In this document: in pieces, positions 9,584 to 24,281 of the stretch | How positions within the stretch are numbered: position 1 is the stretch's first letter | How the letters are laid out: each line of letters opens with the position of its first letter | IMG/VR virus record: IMGVR_UViG_3300048029_000117 | Span: 1 to 53,228 of that record | Length of the DNA: 53,228 nt | Reading direction: 5' to 3' (one strand) | Source of the DNA: a virus | Notes under the pieces: generated by a model | Seen by the model: only the letters and a program-made list of their open reading frames with translations | Told to the model about the DNA's origin: nothing | The model's database searches: none | Translations under genes and position numbers: made by a program

Positions 9584-11116
9584 ATGGAAGAAGTAAAAGA
9601 AAGTGCATCGTATGATAATTATCTAGATACAGATAATAGAATTCAAGATGACTACAAAGCAACATTAGATAAGTATGTCGGCGAAGAACTGACTACTGCC
9701 CTCCCCGATAAAGTTTTAACAAGAGAAGAAAAAGCAGGTGTGCATAAAGTTTTGTATGTGCATTTTCGTAATGTCGATGACATGGTAGAATACTGCTCTT
9801 TGATTGGTCAATGTATAGACTACAAAACTAAAGTTGCATTTTATCCACAAGCAGACCCTGAGACTTCACTATTTGGTGAAGAAGAAGAACCTACTGGTAT
9901 TAAGATTGATAAAAACTTATTACTTCCTCGTTCTAAAAACAAGAGTGAGTCTGCATTAGATATTGAAGTCAATGAAGGTGTGACAGATGTAAATGCAAAA
10001 TGGAAAGAACATTGGGTTGACATGCCAGAATATGTGCAAGAAGATAACCCATCGTTTCGTACAATACATATGCATTTTCGTACAGAAAAACATTATCAAG
10101 ACTTTGCTAAACGTATTGGTCAAGAACTTACAGAAAAAACAAATGCTATCTGGCACCCTAAGTTAGATATTACAAAGAATAGATTTCTTCGATGGGTAGA
10201 TGACGGGTTTACTTTTCCACTCAGACACCCAATGTATATTGTCTCGAAAGGTCGTGCAGATTCAATGATTACATCTAGGTCTTTATCACGTATGAAGATA
10301 CCACATTATATCGTAGTCGAACCACAAGACATGCAAGACTATGACAAAGCACTTGACACGTTTGATATTCGTGAATATGTGACATTATTAGAAGCACCAT
10401 TTTCAAATCATGGTGATGGACCAGGTCGTGCAAGAAACTGGGCATGGGACCACTCAATTAGTATTGGTGCAACAAGTCATTGGGTACTAGATGATAATCT
10501 AGCAGACTTCTACAGATTACATAACAATGAAAGAATACGATTCGAAAGTTCTACAGGTTTTCGTGTCATGGAAGATTTCGTTGACAGATACGATAATGTT
10601 TATATTGCTGGTCCTCAGTATCGATTCTTTATCGCACCAAATCAAAAGTATCCACCATATGTTGCAAATACTAGAATCTATTCTTGTTTGTTAATACGTA
10701 ACGATTGTAAACACAGATGGCGTGGTAGATACAACGAAGATACAGATATTTGTTTAAGAGTTATGAAAGATGGCGATGTTTGTTTGCAGTTCAATGCATT
10801 CATGCAGGGTAAGATGGCAACTCAAACAGTTAGTGGTGGTAATACTGCAGAATTCTATCATGCAGAAAATACAGATGCAATGAAAGAAGGTTACAATACT
10901 GATGGTACTATTAATAAGTCTCAGATGCTGGCAGACATGCACCCAGACGTTGCCACGGTCGTCTGGCGATACGGAAGATGGCATCACCATGTAAACTATA
11001 ATCCATTTAAGAAAAACAAACTTAAATTCAAAGACAACATACATCTATCTACAGGTGTGAATAATTACAATATGATTCTCGATAGAAACTTTCAAGACCC
11101 GAGATTCAGTAAGTGA
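9584..11116 (+). CDS. TAGT-like (TET/JBP-associated) glycosyltransferase, candidate DNA-base modifier
   Basis: 510 residues. The C-terminal part (from about residue 215) has the pattern I associate with the TAGT glycosyltransferases of phages: PMYIVSKGR, then YIVVEPQD, PGRARNWAWDHS, HWVLDDN (metal site, residues 303-305), NTRIYSCLLI, RGRYNEDTDICLR (383-388) and a late RWHH. In that family the enzyme is thought to place sugars on hydroxylated pyrimidines in DNA. The N-terminal part holds a duplicated motif, VHFRNVDDMVEY...LIGQ near residue 60 and MHFRTEKHYQDF...RIGQ near 164. No TET-type dioxygenase is seen in the window. It is coupled by overlap to a second glycosyltransferase. Confidence 0.6.
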   Translation: MEEVKESASYDNYLDTDNRIQDDYKATLDKYVGEELTTALPDKVLTREEKAGVHKVLYVHFRNVDDMVEYCSLIGQCIDYKTKVAFYPQADPETSLFGEEEEPTGIKIDKNLLLPRSKNKSESALDIEVNEGVTDVNAKWKEHWVDMPEYVQEDNPSFRTIHMHFRTEKHYQDFAKRIGQELTEKTNAIWHPKLDITKNRFLRWVDDGFTFPLRHPMYIVSKGRADSMITSRSLSRMKIPHYIVVEPQDMQDYDKALDTFDIREYVTLLEAPFSNHGDGPGRARNWAWDHSISIGATSHWVLDDNLADFYRLHNNERIRFESSTGFRVMEDFVDRYDNVYIAGPQYRFFIAPNQKYPPYVANTRIYSCLLIRNDCKHRWRGRYNEDTDICLRVMKDGDVCLQFNAFMQGKMATQTVSGGNTAEFYHAENTDAMKEGYNTDGTINKSQMLADMHPDVATVVWRYGRWHHHVNYNPFKKNKLKFKDNIHLSTGVNNYNMILDRNFQDPRFSK

Positions 11117-12171
11117 AAATAGTTTTACCCTACTCAGCACATAAAGGTTTTGATGTCAATTCAACCAAGATGGTTGGTGGCATAGAAAAGTTTATTAAAG
11201 ATGTCGCAGATAATTTTGATGTCTTACCTGTTCGTGTGACAGAAGAAGATAAGAAAGCAAACAAGATAAGACAGATAATTGAATCAGCAATTGGTCGACA
11301 CGAACCAGATATGCTTATGTTAAATCAATTGGGTATGGGTAATTATCTTTCGAAACTAGGCATACCAATCGTTGCAATCTGGCATGAACCACTGATTAGA
11401 ACTATTGCACTTGAAAACAAATGCAACTATTTAAAACAATTGCAATCGTTAAATGCTCATGTTTATATGGTAAGTGAATATCAAGAAGAATGGTTTAGAG
11501 AGCAATCAATTAGAACTACTGGGTCAGACTTCGATGAAATACATGGTCACATTCACCCGTCTTATTTAAAAGGTGATGAAGTAGTTTATGCTAAAAAACC
11601 TTATGACGTTGGCACGATTGGGTCTGCATATGAAAGCAAGAATCCATTCTACGTTCACAAACAATCTGTTAACGAACTAGACAGTTTAGTGTTAACAAAT
11701 GATATTGCATATAAAAGTAATGCAGAATATTTAGATAAGAATAGACATTGGCAAGAACCACAGACAACTTTGTTTGACTTAGACCATAATGTTGTTCTTG
11801 AAACAATAGCAAAATGTAAAGTATTCTGTTCAACATGTCCAGAAGAATCATATGGTATTACTGCTCAAGAGGCATTGGGTCATGGATTACCTGCAATATT
11901 AATTACAGATAAATCTAATAAACATGCAAGTGAATCAATAGCAGTACATAAAACTCACTATCGTAAACTACCGAAGAGTTGTAGTAAAGCAGACTTCGTT
12001 GCAACAGTAAAAGAGTTAAGTAAATTACCACATACAACTAGACTAGACATTTCAGAAAAAACTAAAGAAAAACATAGTCTACAAAATTGGAAACAACAAC
12101 TGAAAAATATCTTCGATAAACGTCTCGCAGACAAGAATGTAAAAAATTCACTGGTTGACTTTTTCGTTTAA
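11113..12171 (+). CDS. GT4-like (GT-B) glycosyltransferase
   Basis: 352 residues with a GTG start at 11113 that overlaps the stop of the TAGT-like gene (GTGA). The N terminus has the GT-B layout with a glycine loop (MVGGIEKFIKD). The C-terminal domain has the donor-site signature TCPEESYGITAQEALGHGLPAIL, with the Glu-x7-Glu spacing of GT4 retaining enzymes. Tight coupling suggests that it acts on the same acceptor as the TAGT-like enzyme, perhaps extending a first sugar; this is inference. A promoter for the next gene lies over its last codons. Confidence 0.75.
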   Translation: MKIVLPYSAHKGFDVNSTKMVGGIEKFIKDVADNFDVLPVRVTEEDKKANKIRQIIESAIGRHEPDMLMLNQLGMGNYLSKLGIPIVAIWHEPLIRTIALENKCNYLKQLQSLNAHVYMVSEYQEEWFREQSIRTTGSDFDEIHGHIHPSYLKGDEVVYAKKPYDVGTIGSAYESKNPFYVHKQSVNELDSLVLTNDIAYKSNAEYLDKNRHWQEPQTTLFDLDHNVVLETIAKCKVFCSTCPEESYGITAQEALGHGLPAILITDKSNKHASESIAVHKTHYRKLPKSCSKADFVATVKELSKLPHTTRLDISEKTKEKHSLQNWKQQLKNIFDKRLADKNVKNSLVDFFV

Positions 12172-12924: not shown

Positions 12925-13851
12925 ATGTCATTCGCAAACTTAAAGACCAATAGAACAGATGTCTCAAAACTCGTTTCAGCGGTGCAAGAAGCATCGGGTG
13001 CCACAACTCAGAAGAAATCGTATGAAGACGAAAGATTCTGGAAACCAACTGTCGATGAATCAGGTAATGGGTATGCCGTTATTAGATTCTTACCAGCAGG
13101 TGAAGGTCAAGAATTACCATGGGTAAGATACTTTGACCACTTCTTCAAGGGCCCTACAGGTCAATGGTATGTAGAGAAGTCTCTTACATCTATTGGTCAA
13201 AAAGACCCATTGGGTGAATTGAATTCTAGATTATGGAATTCTGGTATAGATGCAGATAAAGAAACTGCAAGAAATCAAAAACGTAGACTACACCATGTAG
13301 TAAACATTCTTGTTGTCTCAGACCCTGCAAACCGTGCCAATGAAGGTAAAGTCTTTTTATATGACTTTGGTAAAAAAATCATGGACAAGATTATGGACGT
13401 GATGCAACCTCAATTCCCTGGTGAAGAACCTGTCAATCCGTTTGACTTTTGGAATGGTGCAGACTTTGAACTAAAGATTACTAATGTTGCTGGTTACAGA
13501 AACTACGATAAATCTTCATTCAAACCTACTACATCATTATACGATGCAGACGAAACAAAACTAGAAGCAACATATAATGCTATGTTTGATGTTGCTGAGT
13601 TCGTTGAACCTACCAACTATAAAACATATGATGAACTAAAACAGAGATTATCTGTAGTTCTGGGTGAAGCAGTTGGTGAAGGTATGACTCAAAAAAGTGA
13701 GGACTTAACTAAGACCGCAGAAGCAGTTGAACCATCTTCGATGGAAACACCTGTCGTATCTGCAAGTGCGCCAGCACCAGAAGTTAATGCTACTGAATCA
13801 GATGATGAAACTTTGAGTTATTTTGCTAAACTGGCAAATGACGAATCGTAA
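12925..13851 (+). CDS. 32: gp32 single-stranded DNA-binding protein
   Basis: 308 residues. The start at 12925 follows AAAGGAG by 6 bases and gives the usual N terminus (MSFANLK...). Core blocks include YAVIRFLPAGEGQELPWV, WYVEKSLTSIG, SRLWNSG and NPFDFWNGADFELKI, matching gp32 of marine T4-like phages; the C terminus is acidic (ESDDETLSYFAKL), the part that in T4 contacts replication partners. The protein has no cysteine at all, so the structural zinc site of T4 gp32 is absent. It coats single-stranded DNA in replication, recombination and repair. Has its own promoter and is closed by tandem terminators. Confidence 0.9.
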   Translation: MSFANLKTNRTDVSKLVSAVQEASGATTQKKSYEDERFWKPTVDESGNGYAVIRFLPAGEGQELPWVRYFDHFFKGPTGQWYVEKSLTSIGQKDPLGELNSRLWNSGIDADKETARNQKRRLHHVVNILVVSDPANRANEGKVFLYDFGKKIMDKIMDVMQPQFPGEEPVNPFDFWNGADFELKITNVAGYRNYDKSSFKPTTSLYDADETKLEATYNAMFDVAEFVEPTNYKTYDELKQRLSVVLGEAVGEGMTQKSEDLTKTAEAVEPSSMETPVVSASAPAPEVNATESDDETLSYFAKLANDES

Positions 13852-13878
13852 AACTTGTTAATATAAAAACAAGTTTTT
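13851..13878 (+). terminator. Intrinsic terminator 1 after gp32
   Basis: Stem AAACTTGTT (13851-13859) with AACAAGTTT (13868-13876), followed by T residues. Weaker of the two. Confidence 0.6.
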
Positions 13879-13879
13879 A

Positions 13880-13918
13880 AGGGCGATACTAATTACCTCT
13901 CAGTATCGCCCTTTTTTT
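13880..13918 (+). terminator. Strong intrinsic terminator 2 after gp32
   Basis: Stem AGGGCGATACT (13880-13890) with AGTATCGCCCT (13902-13912), 11-base loop, then seven T. It separates the plus-strand early block from the converging minus-strand tail genes; the tape-measure stop lies within the T-run. Confidence 0.9.
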
Positions 13919-15476
13919 ATCCCCTACTTTTTTTTCTAGGATTTACTGCTGGTTCTGGTGGGCCACTCATTGCTAGTGTGTCACCACTTGTAGATGTATT
14001 AGTATTTGTCGATGCATCTATTACTGTTGTGCCACCACCTCTAGATGCTTTTCTACTTGCCGCGGCCTGAATAGATTTTTGTCTTTCTTCTGGTGTTACT
14101 TTGTTTAAATCAGTTTCGTCTAAGTCTGCACCACCTGTACCACTTCCTCTATCTGCTCTTGTAACGTTACCACTTCCACCTGCCATGACTTCTTTATATT
14201 TTCTAGTAAATGCTTCGCCTGGTGATTCGCCACCTGGTAATATTGCACCTAAGGCCGCTAAACCACCCGCTATAACTGCCAGAAAAAATTTACCTACACC
14301 TGCAATAATTTTTCCAATACCACCTAGACCTTTTTTAATTGTCTCTCCATCAAATGTAAATATACCTACTATGATATCTTTTATACCTGTTACAAAACCT
14401 GTGATGCCATCAAATATAGTACTAAACAAACCAGCAAAAGAAAAACTATCTAACAGTTCTGCAAAATTTTCAAACCCAAGTTTACCTGCTATGAAAGATA
14501 CACCTTTTTTCAATAAATCTAATGGCATACTAATTAATGCATTAAAGGCACCTTTTACAAATCCACCTAATCCTGCAATTAATTTATCTCCAATAGTTCC
14601 TTCTGTGTTTGTAAAATCTTTAATTGCCTGTGTGATACCACTAAAAAGACCAATAACTACTTGTAATGGTATTAATAACTTACTACCAATTAATGCAAAA
14701 CCACGAAAAAAACTACCAATAGTACCAAAGAATTTTGATAAAACACCACCACCTTTTGCAACTTTACTAACAATACCAAAAACACTTCGTATAGTTTTAT
14801 TTAAATCAGCAAATGCTTTTATTATAAATCTAAAAGGTTTAAGGAGTGTGTTAAAAAAACTACCCATTCTACCAAAAAATCCTAACTTCGTAAACTGTCC
14901 GACAGAATTTCTTGCAACTTTTAAACTATTAAAACCTGCTTTAAATTGTTTTGTTATATTAGCAAAAGTGTTACTAATTGCTCTAAAAAATTTACCTACT
15001 TCTGGATTCAATCGATTAAATTTTCCAACAAATGCTTTTGATAAGTTTCGTATTCCAGCAAGTGCTTTGTCAAGTCTAAATAATTTACCAATTGCTCCTG
15101 TAACTAATGCAATTTGACCTGCTATAGCACCAACTAAACCTGTTGCCAGACCAGCAATTGCACCAGCAATCATGGCAAAATAATTACCACCAAAATCTAG
15201 TGGTTCTATATCACTACCAGTTGCGGCACCCATTGCGCCTTCTTTCGTGACTTGACCTTGTTGTTCTCTAGATGCTTCTAACTTATCACTTTCTTTATCT
15301 CGTCTTTCTGCTTTAAAAAATTGCTTGAAAGTTTCAGTTAATTGGTCAACTGCCAATGCAGTATCAAGTTGCGCCGTAAGTGTTGCACCCGCAATTTCGT
15401 CTTGTTTTGCTAAGTCGGTAATAAATTTTGAGTTTTGTACTCTCAATTCTTGAATTTCGTCAGTTAAATCTGCCAT
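13917..15476 (-). CDS. Tail tape-measure protein (gp29-type position)
   Basis: 519 residues. The N terminus is helical and acidic. The middle is a long series of Gly/Ala/Phe-rich hydrophobic stretches alternating with KxFxxFxx helices (for example MIAGAIAGLATGLVGAIAG), and the C terminus is polar and Gly/Ser/Thr-rich. This composition, plus a position directly after the gp26/gp51 chaperone genes, is typical of tape-measure proteins, which set tail length and pass through the tube at infection. T4 gp29 is 590 residues. The late promoter core lies only five bases before the ATG and no ribosome site is present. Confidence 0.7.
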   Translation of the reverse strand: MADLTDEIQELRVQNSKFITDLAKQDEIAGATLTAQLDTALAVDQLTETFKQFFKAERRDKESDKLEASREQQGQVTKEGAMGAATGSDIEPLDFGGNYFAMIAGAIAGLATGLVGAIAGQIALVTGAIGKLFRLDKALAGIRNLSKAFVGKFNRLNPEVGKFFRAISNTFANITKQFKAGFNSLKVARNSVGQFTKLGFFGRMGSFFNTLLKPFRFIIKAFADLNKTIRSVFGIVSKVAKGGGVLSKFFGTIGSFFRGFALIGSKLLIPLQVVIGLFSGITQAIKDFTNTEGTIGDKLIAGLGGFVKGAFNALISMPLDLLKKGVSFIAGKLGFENFAELLDSFSFAGLFSTIFDGITGFVTGIKDIIVGIFTFDGETIKKGLGGIGKIIAGVGKFFLAVIAGGLAALGAILPGGESPGEAFTRKYKEVMAGGSGNVTRADRGSGTGGADLDETDLNKVTPEERQKSIQAAASRKASRGGGTTVIDASTNTNTSTSGDTLAMSGPPEPAVNPRKKSRG

Positions 15477-15480
15477 ACTT

Positions 15481-15675
15481 CTATTTATACTTTGACTCTT
15501 CTTTTTTCTGTCTTTCTTCTTCTTTTTTTATCCAGTCTAATAATAATGTAATGTAAATTTCCCTTTCCCATGGTATCATATTTTCTAGTTCTGTCAAACT
15601 GTACTTATGATGTTGCATCATTGCAAAATTAGTCTGATAATAATTTGTCAGACTATCATGCGAAAGGTTTAGGAG
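15481..15675 (-). CDS. 51: gp51-like extension, probably made by -1 frameshift from gp26
   Basis: An open frame of 64 codons with protein-like sequence throughout (SLTNYYQTNFAMMQHHKYS, then LTELENMIPWEREIYITLLL and a charged tail). The block before the only ATG pair (15621) is as protein-like as the part after it, and that ATG has no ribosome site. The frame joins gp26 exactly at a T_TTT_TTC slippery heptamer (15681-15675), which lies in the correct phase. The fused product would be 300 residues. The 'MIPWEREIY' block resembles the T-part of tail-assembly chaperones. Alternative: a separately started gp51 of about 46 residues. Confidence 0.65.
   Translation of the reverse strand, partial: LLNLSHDSLTNYYQTNFAMMQHHKYSLTELENMIPWEREIYITLLLDWIKKEEERQKKEESKYK
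15482..15489 (-). promoter_or_regulatory. T4-type late promoter, leaderless arrangement (tape measure)
   Basis: Minus strand reads TATAAATAGAAGTATG, with the ATG of the tape-measure gene starting five bases after the core. The same 16 bases occur at 17758-17773. The promoter core overlaps the last codons and stop of the gp51-like frame. Confidence 0.75.
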
Positions 15676-16382
15676 AAAAAATCAGAAATACCTTTAAGTT
15701 TTCTGTTGTTTTCATGCCCACAGTTAGAACAAGTAAAGTTAACAGTATCTTCTAATTGTGGCATATTTTGTACATAGTCTGCAATAGATTGAAATTGTTG
15801 AGAACTCATTGACTCAATAAATTCACTTAACTCTTTTACTGAGACTTCATCTGCACTAATTCTAGTTTCTCCATTAATTACTGCATCAATACAATTATTA
15901 ATTACCATATAACTAAACTCAGTTTCAGTTTGGTCTTTACCATAGTTTTTGATAAATGCCTCAAAAGATGGATACTTTAATTCTACAGAGATATTATCTG
16001 TTAATTCAATAACATTGTTTATCTCTGGAACTTCAACTTTAAGTTCTGCTAAATTAATTGTTTGCTCATTATTTGTTCCACACTCAGAACATGCAACATT
16101 AATTTTAGTTGTTTCACCTACAGATTTACTACGTATTTGTGTAAACATATATTCTACATCAAATGAAGTAAATGTTTTAGGATTTAGTTTTTCGTTAACA
16201 CATGCAATAATTGTATCTACCATTGCCTGCATCGCCTGTTTTTCATCTTGAGACTCAAATGCAAGAAGAAGTATTTTTTCTTCTTTCACTAAGTAAGGAC
16301 GATAACTCACTTTTTGCCCCGATGACGGAATTGTCAACTCGTGAGTTGGGGTTGCATTTAATTTTGGTAATGCTCCACTCAT
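15669..16382 (-). CDS. 26: gp26 baseplate hub/tail assembly protein
   Basis: 237 residues, AGGAGAAT upstream. The T4 gp26 pattern is seen in VSYRPYLVKEEKILLLAFES near the N terminus. Two CxxC pairs (CSECG near residue 100 and CSNCG near 222) could bind one zinc ion. It ends GISDFFS just after a slippery T_TTT_TTC site. In T4, gp26 is a hub assembly factor; in this genome its place between a tube-like protein and the tape measure is that of the lambda G-type chaperone. Confidence 0.8.
   Translation of the reverse strand: MSGALPKLNATPTHELTIPSSGQKVSYRPYLVKEEKILLLAFESQDEKQAMQAMVDTIIACVNEKLNPKTFTSFDVEYMFTQIRSKSVGETTKINVACSECGTNNEQTINLAELKVEVPEINNVIELTDNISVELKYPSFEAFIKNYGKDQTETEFSYMVINNCIDAVINGETRISADEVSVKELSEFIESMSSQQFQSIADYVQNMPQLEDTVNFTCSNCGHENNRKLKGISDFFS
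15675..15681 (-). other. Predicted -1 programmed frameshift site (T_TTT_TTC)
   Basis: In the gp26 frame the codons are GAT TTT TTC TCC TAA, so both tRNAs can slip back by one onto TTT TTT. After slipping, the frame continues CTC CTA AAC and stays open for 64 codons. The zero-frame stop is two codons downstream. Heptamer phase and the downstream frame are seen directly; the slip itself is predicted. Confidence 0.65.
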
Positions 16383-16396
16383 AATATTCTCCTATA

Positions 16397-17182
16397 TTAT
16401 AATCTATCTATAAGTGTACTTGTAAACCCACCAAGCATTTTATCTTTGAGTTTATCTTTCACTTTTTCACCGACAACATCAATTGCTTTATCGATAATTC
16501 TATCTTTCAAATTACCTTCAACTATTCTAAAGTTTTTGTATGATAATTGAACGTTCACTTCTAATAAACCATCTAGTTCATTATTCATTTCGAAACTATT
16601 TATAGTAGTAGGATATGCTTTGTCTAGTCGACAAGAATATGTCACACCTTCTGCCATATACCTCAAACCTGTATCACCTAATAAACCTAAATCAAAAGTA
16701 CCATTTGCTAAGTCAAGTGGACCGATTGGCGGTATTATATCTTTTAGTGCATCTGGTAGTTTATTGTCAAATAACTTTTTAGGTTGTAACAGTGGATTTT
16801 CTGCACCTTTTTTAAGTGCTTGAATGATTACTGGATATGTATAATCATTTAAATAACCGACTTCTTGTTCTTCTTGATTGACTGCTTTTGATTGCCAAGC
16901 ATGAAAGTAATCTATGATTCTCATGTCATTTAAACAATAAAAAGTTAAAGTCACGTCATCACTAGCATAACCATTTGCAACTTTCATGGTTGACATACCC
17001 ATAAATCTTTCTGTTGATAGTATTTGCCTACCTGGTATTTGTGCGGCCTTACAGAGAATATCCATGTCTTGTGTTCTTACACCAATAATTGGTGGCAAAA
17101 AGACACGATAAAGGTTGGCCATCGCAAGACCGCCACCTTCTGTTATTCTACTCTTGAACGTATCTATCATGTTAGTTGTCAT
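16397..17182 (-). CDS. Tail-tube-fold baseplate protein, gp54-like
   Basis: 261 residues; start in an ATGA overlap with the upstream gene, and AGGAAAA before it. The pattern follows the tube-protein family: GGLAMANLYRVFLPP, ILCKAAQIPGRQILSTERFMG, VTLTFYCLNDMRIIDYFHAW, then a late YPTTINSFEMNNEL and VNVQLSYKNFRIV. In marine T4-like phages this fold serves gp19 (tube) and gp54 (tube initiator on the baseplate). Its place beside gp26 and the tape measure, and not beside a sheath gene, favours gp54. The C terminus is a Lys/Asp-rich helix. Confidence 0.6.
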   Translation of the reverse strand: MTTNMIDTFKSRITEGGGLAMANLYRVFLPPIIGVRTQDMDILCKAAQIPGRQILSTERFMGMSTMKVANGYASDDVTLTFYCLNDMRIIDYFHAWQSKAVNQEEQEVGYLNDYTYPVIIQALKKGAENPLLQPKKLFDNKLPDALKDIIPPIGPLDLANGTFDLGLLGDTGLRYMAEGVTYSCRLDKAYPTTINSFEMNNELDGLLEVNVQLSYKNFRIVEGNLKDRIIDKAIDVVGEKVKDKLKDKMLGGFTSTLIDRL

Positions 17183-21455: not shown

Positions 21456-22336
21456 ACGAGAAATTTTTAAATCCAGTGCCTTATGAATATTATGGAGATA
21501 ATGTTCGTTGGTTTATTGCGACAGTTATTGATGCATCACCACCATTTGGATTTGAAGGTCGTGTAAAGATAAGAATTCATGGTTTACACTCAGACGAAAT
21601 ATACGAATTGCCACAACAAGACTTACCCTGGGCGCAATGTGTTCTTCCAACAACAGAAGGTGGTATTTCTGGTATAGGTAAATCACCAAAGTTGCAACCA
21701 AATTCATTAGTCTTTGGTTTTTTTATGGATGGTAATCACTCACAAACTCCAATTGTTTTAGGTTCTTTGCCACATTTAGAGTTTGCGACATTAACTCAAA
21801 ACAATCAAAGATTAGAAGACATTGGTGATGACAGTAAACCAGAAGGTTTGTTTTCGATACTGTCAAACATAGTTACACCAATAGATAAAGGCATAGAAAA
21901 TGATAATACACAAAGTAATCCACGAAAGTTTTCTAAAACAACCAGAGATAAAAGAGTAAAACACTCAGTACAATTTTTATTAAATTTAGGTTATACAGAA
22001 AATCAAGCAATTGCAATTACTTCTGGTTTATTTATTTCATCTAGAATGGTCACTGGTAAAACTGGACTTGCAGATTTTTCTAAACAAAGATTTTCAAACT
22101 TAATTGCATTTAGTTCGGCATTTAAAAAGTTTACAACACAATTAGAGTTTGTTGTTTTTGAACTAAGAGGTGAAAAACAAAATGCTAATATAAAAATATT
22201 ACAAACTGACAGTTTAGAAGGTAAAAATTCTTTACCAGAAATTGTGACTAAATACTATTTAGAAAACAATGCATCTGGTTTTAAAGATGAAGTAGAAGCA
22301 AAGGCACTAGAAATCAAGGAGAGTATTGGTGGGTAG
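21452..22336 (+). CDS. 5: gp5-like hub protein: OB domain plus degenerate lysozyme-like domain
   Basis: 294 residues. Residues about 18-110 form the gp5 OB fold: WFIATVIDASPPFGFEGRVKIRIHGLH, LPWAQCVLPTTEGG and IVLGSLPH. Residues about 165-260 follow the phage tail-lysozyme layout (FLLNLGYTENQAIAITSGLF, then QRFSNL and QLEFVVFELRG), but where that family has a catalytic Glu-Ser the protein reads Ser-Ser (196-197), so it is probably inactive. The beta-helix needle of T4 gp5 is encoded separately at 24987. Coupled by overlaps on both sides. Confidence 0.7.
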   Translation: MNEKFLNPVPYEYYGDNVRWFIATVIDASPPFGFEGRVKIRIHGLHSDEIYELPQQDLPWAQCVLPTTEGGISGIGKSPKLQPNSLVFGFFMDGNHSQTPIVLGSLPHLEFATLTQNNQRLEDIGDDSKPEGLFSILSNIVTPIDKGIENDNTQSNPRKFSKTTRDKRVKHSVQFLLNLGYTENQAIAITSGLFISSRMVTGKTGLADFSKQRFSNLIAFSSAFKKFTTQLEFVVFELRGEKQNANIKILQTDSLEGKNSLPEIVTKYYLENNASGFKDEVEAKALEIKESIGG

Positions 22337-24281
22337 AGAAATTAAATCACGAATTAATTCTCAATTAAAAAGATTAAAAAGAGAAGATATAGAGCAAGAG
22401 TACATTAAAGTAAACTTGCCAAAAGCAAGTGACCAACTTCGTGCTAAATTAGATACAACTATTGGTAGAGATTTAACAGAAATTGGTGGTATAAAACCTT
22501 TAGATATAGTACAAAATGCAAAAGGTGATGTCATACAAGGTGAAGGCGTTGCTCTTATTACTGAAAACTTACCTAGTATTACTGGCATTAATGACCCTGG
22601 AACAATCACATTGCCATATTCTGCTGGTAGTTTGACAACTAATTTTGGTGGTTCTGATTCTGGTTTTAATTCATCGTTTAATGTTAGTGCAACGAAAACT
22701 GGTGGAACAACTGCTCAACCTATTTCTACAATATTAGGTGACATAACAGGTGCTCCTGCTTTAAAATTATCTCTACCTAAACTTAATTTAAATATTGCAG
22801 GTGGTGGTAGTCCAACAAGTATAGCAGAAGGTATTGATGGTGCAGTTGCAAAAGCAAGTGCTAAAGCATCATCAATTGCAGATGCTGCCAGTGGTATTGC
22901 ATCTTCTCAAGAACTAAGTGAAATAGCAAGTGTTACTCAAAATCTTGATGCTGGTACTGCGGTAGAGGCAGTAACTAAATTAATATCTGGCATACCTGAT
23001 TTAAAAACTACAACTAATCCAGAAGACGTTTTGGGTAACGTTCAAAATCAAACAGGTGTAGAGGCACTTCAAGCAAAGGCAAAAGTTACTAAACTTAAAC
23101 TTGCATCTTTTCCTAGTGTTGCAGGTTTTGTTGGTAAAATTAAAGACTTAGCAGGAGATATAGGTGAACTTGTTGATAAAGCAACAGATGCCATAGCAAC
23201 TGTAATAGCAACAATTGCCACAGGTTTAGATGGTGTATTACAAAACATTACAGAAAAAATAACATTAAACACAGAAAATAAAGTAAAAGGTATTACTGGT
23301 GGTGCAGTAGAAAGTGCAGTATTAAAAGATATTACAGAAGACGTAGCAAAGAAAACACCAGAAGGTGATGCAAATGCAATTAAGTCAATACTTGGAAATG
23401 CAGATATTGGTGGTTTTATGAAAGGTATTGTAGACAAAGTAAAATCTTTTACAAGTCCTTTAGACTTTAAAAACAAAGTAAAAGACGAAGCAGAAAAATC
23501 AGGTATATCAAAAGATGAAATAGAAAATACAACAAACACAATTGATAGAGCAGATAAAGAAATAAAATCATTAAACACAACAATTGCTGGTCAAATGATA
23601 CTAGATGAACAATTTTATTCATTACCAAAACCCATTGGTGAAGAGATTACAAAGTGGTCAGGTAGAAACAGTGGAGATGAAGTGTTTACTTTCGTATCTT
23701 CTGTTGAAGAATTAAATTCAGAAATACACGCAATTACAAGACCACTATCAGAAGTGGTAATTCATGCGACTGAAACTGCAACTGATAAAGACATAGGCGC
23801 AATAGAAATAAATAATATACAATCAAAATTAGGACATGATGGTATTGGTTATCATTATGTTATACGAAGAGACGGAAGATTGCAAAGAGGTAGACCACCA
23901 GATAGAGTTGGTGACCATACGTCTGCAAATGGTCATAATAATCATTCTCTTGGTATTGTACTTGTTGGTGGTATAAATGTTGCTACTGGTGATGTAGATG
24001 CACTTGGTAATAGGTCATCATCTTCATTTACAAGAGAACAGTATACAACACTTGAAAGATTTTTAGAAGCATTTTACATTAAATATCCAGGTGGTAATGT
24101 TTTCGGGCACAACGACTTAGATGCAGAAGAAACAGACCCTTACTTTGACGTGCAAGAATATGTCGAGACAGTATTTAGAAAACAATTAAATGGTATAGGA
24201 GACCCACTAAACGAAGGACCAGTTGACCCAACAAAAGACCTTCTTAATATAGTATTAAAAATATTACAGGTACCAAAATGA
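22329..24281 (+). CDS. Tail-associated cell-wall amidase (Amidase_2 / AmpD type), GTG start
   Basis: 650 residues from GTG at 22329, seven bases after AAGGAG; TTG at 22326 is also possible. Residues 1-470 are low-complexity and helical, Ala/Thr/Lys-rich. The C-terminal part is an N-acetylmuramoyl-L-alanine amidase: VVIHATET (zinc His near 480), GIGYHYVIRRDGR, NNHSLGIVLVGG, VFGHNDLD (His near 595) and TDPYFDV, where Asp replaces the Cys of T7 lysozyme, as in AmpD. It probably opens peptidoglycan at infection, taking over the lytic role lost by the gp5-like protein. ATGA overlap with the next gene. Confidence 0.8.
   Translation: MGREIKSRINSQLKRLKREDIEQEYIKVNLPKASDQLRAKLDTTIGRDLTEIGGIKPLDIVQNAKGDVIQGEGVALITENLPSITGINDPGTITLPYSAGSLTTNFGGSDSGFNSSFNVSATKTGGTTAQPISTILGDITGAPALKLSLPKLNLNIAGGGSPTSIAEGIDGAVAKASAKASSIADAASGIASSQELSEIASVTQNLDAGTAVEAVTKLISGIPDLKTTTNPEDVLGNVQNQTGVEALQAKAKVTKLKLASFPSVAGFVGKIKDLAGDIGELVDKATDAIATVIATIATGLDGVLQNITEKITLNTENKVKGITGGAVESAVLKDITEDVAKKTPEGDANAIKSILGNADIGGFMKGIVDKVKSFTSPLDFKNKVKDEAEKSGISKDEIENTTNTIDRADKEIKSLNTTIAGQMILDEQFYSLPKPIGEEITKWSGRNSGDEVFTFVSSVEELNSEIHAITRPLSEVVIHATETATDKDIGAIEINNIQSKLGHDGIGYHYVIRRDGRLQRGRPPDRVGDHTSANGHNNHSLGIVLVGGINVATGDVDALGNRSSSSFTREQYTTLERFLEAFYIKYPGGNVFGHNDLDAEETDPYFDVQEYVETVFRKQLNGIGDPLNEGPVDPTKDLLNIVLKILQVPK

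Follow-up and report, generated by a model that had tools for sequence, protein, structure and literature searches.

A probable -1 frameshift cassette joining gp26- and gp51-type reading frames in a T4-superfamily phage

The gp26-type gene of an uncultured marine virus of the T4 superfamily very probably yields a TAC-N/TAC-NC pair of proteins by programmed -1 ribosomal frameshifting, as judged from sequence comparison. The window is the whole source record, 53,228 bases in length. The gene ends in an in-phase slippery heptamer that is kept throughout the relatives with a single gene of this type, and the -1 frame behind the heptamer is conserved as coding sequence and is devoid of a recognizable start site of its own. 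The paralogous proteins of T4 are encoded by two separate genes.

Slip site, reading frames and neighboring genes

The minus-strand reading of positions 15300-16600 places the start codon of gp26 (ATG) at 16382 and the zero-frame stop codon (TAA) at 15671-15669. The zero frame ends with ...TCT GAT TTT TTC TCC TAA, and one codon (TCC) separates the heptamer T_TTT_TTC from the stop. The original prediction had placed this heptamer, in phase, at 15681-15675 within a gp26 end of GAT TTT TTC TCC TAA, and its sequence, phase and coordinates were confirmed. Translation of the -1 frame gives FF followed by LLNLSHDSLTNYYQTNFAMMQHHKYSLTELENMIPWEREIYITLLLDWIKKEEERQKKEESKYK, with the -1 stop codon at 15483-15481. 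The predicted fusion of gp26 and the extension has 236 + 64 = 300 residues, where the 64 codons are counted after the two slippery Phe residues, and the predicted peptide across the slip junction is SDFFLLNLSHDS. The 64 open codons and the 300-residue fusion had both been predicted, and both numbers were reproduced. The coordinates of the features are collected in Table 1.

Table 1. Features at and around the gp26-type gene of the window
Feature	Position	Strand	Evidence or remark
Tail tube protein gene (gp19-type), upstream	16397..17182	-	phrog_45, 3.8e-31
gp26-type gene, putative short tail assembly chaperone (TAC-N)	15669..16382	-	237 aa; PF12322 and phrog_150
Internal Shine-Dalgarno-like AAAGG	15691..15695	-	9 nt 5' of the heptamer; probable stimulator
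Slippery heptamer T_TTT_TTC	15675..15681	-	in phase, X_XXY_YYZ
-1 frame extension (T / TAC-C domain, gp51-type)	15481..15675	-	64 codons past the slip, then stop TAG
Predicted RNA hairpin, possible stimulator	15623..15661	-	-10.8 kcal/mol; 3' of the slip site
Candidate independent start of the extension (-1-frame ATG pair), judged unused	15616..15621	-	anti-SD +0.4 kcal/mol
Tape-measure-like gene, downstream	13917..15476	-	519 aa; phrog_58, 3.7e-7, and position

The frequency of the heptamer was dropped as evidence in its own right: in this AT-rich window TTTTTTY is rarer than expected, with 35 occurrences observed versus 88 expected from shuffles. The heptamer by itself says little, and the case for frameshifting therefore rests on conservation.

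The protein encoded by gp26 matches the Pfam family T4_baseplate (PF12322) with an E-value of 1.9e-60 and 204.7 bits, versus a curated cut-off of 24.5. The match spans profile positions 2-218 of 219, so that gp26 is a full-length member of the family. A second match, to phrog_150 ("baseplate hub"), covers profile positions 4-232 of 282 at 1.1e-60. Positions 232-276 of the same profile correspond to the extension and continue where the gp26 match ends; a further match of the extension is phrog_634 ("baseplate hub assembly catalyst", 8.1e-29). A single gp26-type match appears in the 53 kb record, and the absence of a second full-length paralogue is provisional, as the record is a fragment.

The gene order is tube, gp26/extension, tape measure, which is the location of a G/GT-type chaperone, and the ATG of the tape-measure-like gene directly follows the -1 frame stop. 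Genes for a DNA end protector and for head closure lie beyond the tube gene. At 13851-13936, T-rich stretches surround the short gap between the convergent ends of a single-strand binding protein gene and the tape-measure gene and may form a terminator. Elsewhere in the window, the reading frame at 9584-11116, which neighbors another at 11113-12171, matches phrog_842, a beta-glucosyl-HMC-alpha-glucosyltransferase (2.2e-42), and a 651-residue reading frame of the baseplate region at 22326-24281 carries a C-terminal amidase domain (phrog_822, 2e-35).

AlphaFold2 models were obtained for gp26 (pLDDT 87) and for a T4-type gp51 (pLDDT 84.7), the C-terminal part of the latter being helical and less certain. 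In the PDB, the gp26-type model matches the HK97 tail assembly chaperone 2ob9 with the highest probability, 0.85, but with a weak E-value of 0.35 and TM-scores of 0.25/0.49. This model-based match is a hint of a chaperone fold and not a proof of one. The structure search with the gp51 model gave no match of the HK97-chaperone type, and a search by sequence for solved structures found none.

Conservation of the heptamer and coding in the -1 frame

In all 80 closest viral-contig loci, an in-phase TTTTTT[C/T/A] precedes the gp26 stop by 7 or 10 bases and is accompanied by a conserved -1 extension. A set widened by a distant alignment and by Sinorhizobium and Vibrio proteins holds 246 complete single-gene loci, including the window and nine GenBank phages, and in-phase T_TTT_TTN is kept in 246/246. 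Conservation in relatives had been put forward as a test of the original prediction, and every sampled phage whose gp26-type gene is single retains the heptamer. In blastn, the alignments of several cyanophages start precisely at query base 820, corresponding to position 15681, the first base of the heptamer.

Codon-level statistics were calculated for 137 non-redundant loci with expectations derived from the codon use of each gene. The residue before Phe-Phe varies among these loci (Ser, Asp, Asn, Ala, Thr, Gly or His), and its codon ends in T in all 137 (mean expectation 0.59; nominal log10 P of -33.6, uncorrected for kinship). The first Phe codon is TTT in every one of the 137 loci (expectation 0.675; nominal log10 P of -25.8, again uncorrected for kinship).

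Transcriptional slippage on the T run, by which mRNAs of altered length would give the fusion in place of ribosomal frameshifting, is extremely improbable. Runs of 7-8 T, which would suit this explanation, occur in 53/137 relatives, but only T6C is found in 80/137, this phage included, and T6A in 4/137 (L139, L146, L050 and L055), where the second slippery Phe is replaced by Leu and the X_XXY_YYZ pattern is retained. The Shine-Dalgarno-like element at a fixed spacing 5' of the site also suggests slippage of the ribosome. Such an element upstream of a slip site is a known sign of ribosomal slippage, for example in dnaX.

The extension is also backed by a tblastn search in 495 phage records. It is conserved from its first codons, and neither a conserved start codon nor a conserved ribosome site accompanies it. 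For close pairs, the first 50 bases 3' of the heptamer have 719, 551 and 1835 substitutions at -1-frame codon positions 1, 2 and 3, respectively, a pattern that is, at the sequence level, the mark of a translated -1 frame. The conserved C-terminal domain in a shifted frame without its own start is a characteristic of G/GT-type chaperones.

The same data bear on the alternative that gp26 and gp51 are two separate genes, with gp51 initiated at 15621-15616 or by re-initiation and the heptamer a by-product of Phe-Phe in an AT-rich gene. GenBank records in which gp51 is annotated as a separate gene agree with this alternative, but the annotated starts vary and several annotators found none and left the region empty. 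In some relatives (L082 and L088) an ATG stands beside the gp26 stop; about 20 of the 135 loci compared have an ATG close to that stop, and re-initiation is conceivable there. The position of the first -1-frame ATG is scattered among the 135 loci, usually at codons 20-21, and 11 have no ATG within the first 24 codons. Candidate starts are without a Shine-Dalgarno sequence: the median anti-SD energy is +0.5 kcal/mol at the first -1-frame ATG versus -6.4 at gp26 starts. The ATG pair at 15621-15616 had been described originally as lacking a ribosome site, and its value of +0.4 kcal/mol corresponds to no anti-SD pairing. The codons before this pair, proposed at the outset for comparison, encode residues that are strongly conserved upstream of the candidates (L10, 96%; N17, 96%; F18, 99%). 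Conservation at the codon level also exceeds what Phe-Phe would need. Independent initiation at 15621, named in the original prediction as a finding that would refute it, did not emerge in the form of any well-supported start, and the two-gene alternative is highly unlikely for this phage.

In the marine phage records examined, gp51 is either missed or given as a gene of its own whose start is arbitrary, and it should be annotated in such records as a ribosomal-slippage product of gp26. The cyanophage GenBank records L082, L083, L084, L089, L270 and L271 have inconsistent gp51 starts or no annotated gp51, and S-SSM4, ACG-2014i and ACG-2014d carry no annotation for the frameshift extension.

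Candidate stimulators around the slip site

A purine-rich element lies 9-10 nt 5' of the heptamer; it reads GGAGGG in the strongest relatives and AAAGG in this phage. The pairing energy of the element with the 16S anti-SD sequence has a family mean of -6.4 kcal/mol versus -5.06 kcal/mol in synonymous shuffles (z of -10.9; 0/200 shuffles). In this phage the element is weak (-3.9 kcal/mol). In the 137 relatives the excess is restricted to roughly positions -15 to -10 relative to the heptamer, and eight other offsets within these genes show either no excess or a depletion. A consistent SD-like excess was not seen in nine gp26 genes from two-gene phages. Within the aligned sequences, the SD-like element is enriched beyond what the protein sequence explains, and it may be a new detail of these genes.

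The stretches around the predicted hairpin of the window have folding z-scores of -2.9 to -4.35. For the family, the mean folding z of 45-nt windows that start 4-10 nt after the heptamer falls to about -1 versus shuffles. Covariation in support of a downstream hairpin was sought across the family and was not found. A common stimulatory hairpin was rejected, as hairpins are present in most loci at varying offsets and the alignment of near relatives breaks the stem of the window. Pairing of the upstream purine element with downstream pyrimidines (CCUUUC/CCUCUC) was also rejected; there is no covariation, and own versus swapped pairing partners give a z of -0.9, the same as controls. The SD-like element of this phage is a probable stimulator of slippage and the hairpin a possible one.

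Two-gene relatives and comparison with known systems

The gp26 (208 aa) and gp51 (249 aa) proteins of T4 are both full-length members of PF12322 (8.8e-64 and 3.9e-52). T4 gp51 matches phrog_150 over positions 13-280 and also phrog_634, and it carries the C-terminal domain; T4 gp26 ends with ...KEFFELL at the junction. The two T4 genes are paralogous, divergently transcribed and without the slippery heptamer. The two-gene state is found in T4, Acinetobacter phages, Aeromonas phage 31, Proteus phage phiP4-3, a Krischvirus, Stenotrophomonas phage IME13, three further viral contigs and RB43, and a search of the two-gene phages, T4 and RB43 included, found no T_TTT_TTN site. RB43 (L261:2501-3794) has a gp51-like long-form gene and a gp26-like short-form gene in tandem on one strand. 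A single gene with T_TTT_TTC and the extension is found in KVP40 and its relatives, Aeromonas phage ZPAH1, Cronobacter phage S13 and Agrobacterium phage OLIVR5.

In an unrooted maximum-likelihood tree the two-gene proteins fall on one side (100/99) and the frameshift proteins on the other (100/99). The gp51 proteins form one group, as do the gp26 proteins except that of RB43, which adjoins the gp51 group on a long branch. KVP40, S13 and ZPAH1 share the family Straboviridae with T4, so the simplest reading would be the replacement of the frameshift by a single duplication in the lineage of T4. We lean slightly toward a broader account that combines this single duplication, giving one gene per form with the RB43 tandem as a variant, with a three-part cassette in which the ratio of short to long form would be set partly by the internal Shine-Dalgarno element that is conserved 9-10 nt 5' of U_UUU_UUN.

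By the frameshift mechanism proposed for this phage, most ribosomes would stop at the end of gp26 and release the 237-residue short form. Some would slip back by one base at U_UUU_UUC, where the two Phe-tRNAs would re-pair, and pass the gp26 stop in the -1 frame to give the 300-residue long form, whose C-terminal domain would be helical. If gpG/gpGT of lambda is taken as a guide, the short form may coat the tape measure protein, the added domain of the long form may recruit tube subunits, and both forms may leave the finished tail. The gene had been predicted to be the T4-branch counterpart of lambda G/GT. The position between the tube and tape measure genes and the short/long architecture bear this out, but T4 itself uses separate paralogous genes. 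The likeness to lambda that was observed is one of position and architecture; the slip site here is T_TTT_TTC and the short protein has 237 residues.

The gp26 and gp51 proteins of T4 are full-length homologues of the gp26 of the window, and T4 gp51 also has the C-terminal domain; T4 differs in its two divergent genes and in having no heptamer. T4 gp51 is absent from the final particle (PMC3004832), and according to a 2016 review, G-T frameshifting is conserved widely among long-tailed phages, "except T4" (PMC5009743). Another two-gene chaperone has its short and long forms made from separate genes, as in T4 (PMC2147016); it belongs to an unrelated lineage, whereas the phage of the window would use a frameshift.

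An SD-like element, a heptamer and a hairpin follow one another here in the same order as in a dnaX-type cassette and at about the same distances. In contrast to that cassette, the heptamer here is U-based, the hairpins are lineage-dependent and the SD-like element of this phage is a weak one.

The study of Vladimirov et al. from 2022 reportedly describes frameshifting for several groups of T4-like phages and, for T4, two separate genes (26 and 51). Tail assembly chaperone genes of T4-like phages were identified in that study (Vladimirov, Gautam & Davidson, Virology 2022, 566:9-15, via PMC12846349), to which polyT slippery sequences in T4-like TAC-N genes are credited (PMC12846349, its ref. 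76). As far as it is represented there, the study concerns the same 26/51-type genes with the same short/long scheme. It precedes the present work on the paralogy of T4 gp26 and gp51, and a claim that this paralogy was unreported was dropped. To the same extent it agrees with what the window and its relatives indicate, namely that much of the T4 superfamily uses the frameshift, T4 being the two-gene case. A frameshifted chaperone in T4-like phages is of an already known kind, and the internal Shine-Dalgarno element is the feature most worth following. Apart from the phage itself, the points derived here are the codon-level statistics, the SD-like element near the slip site and the tandem genes of RB43.
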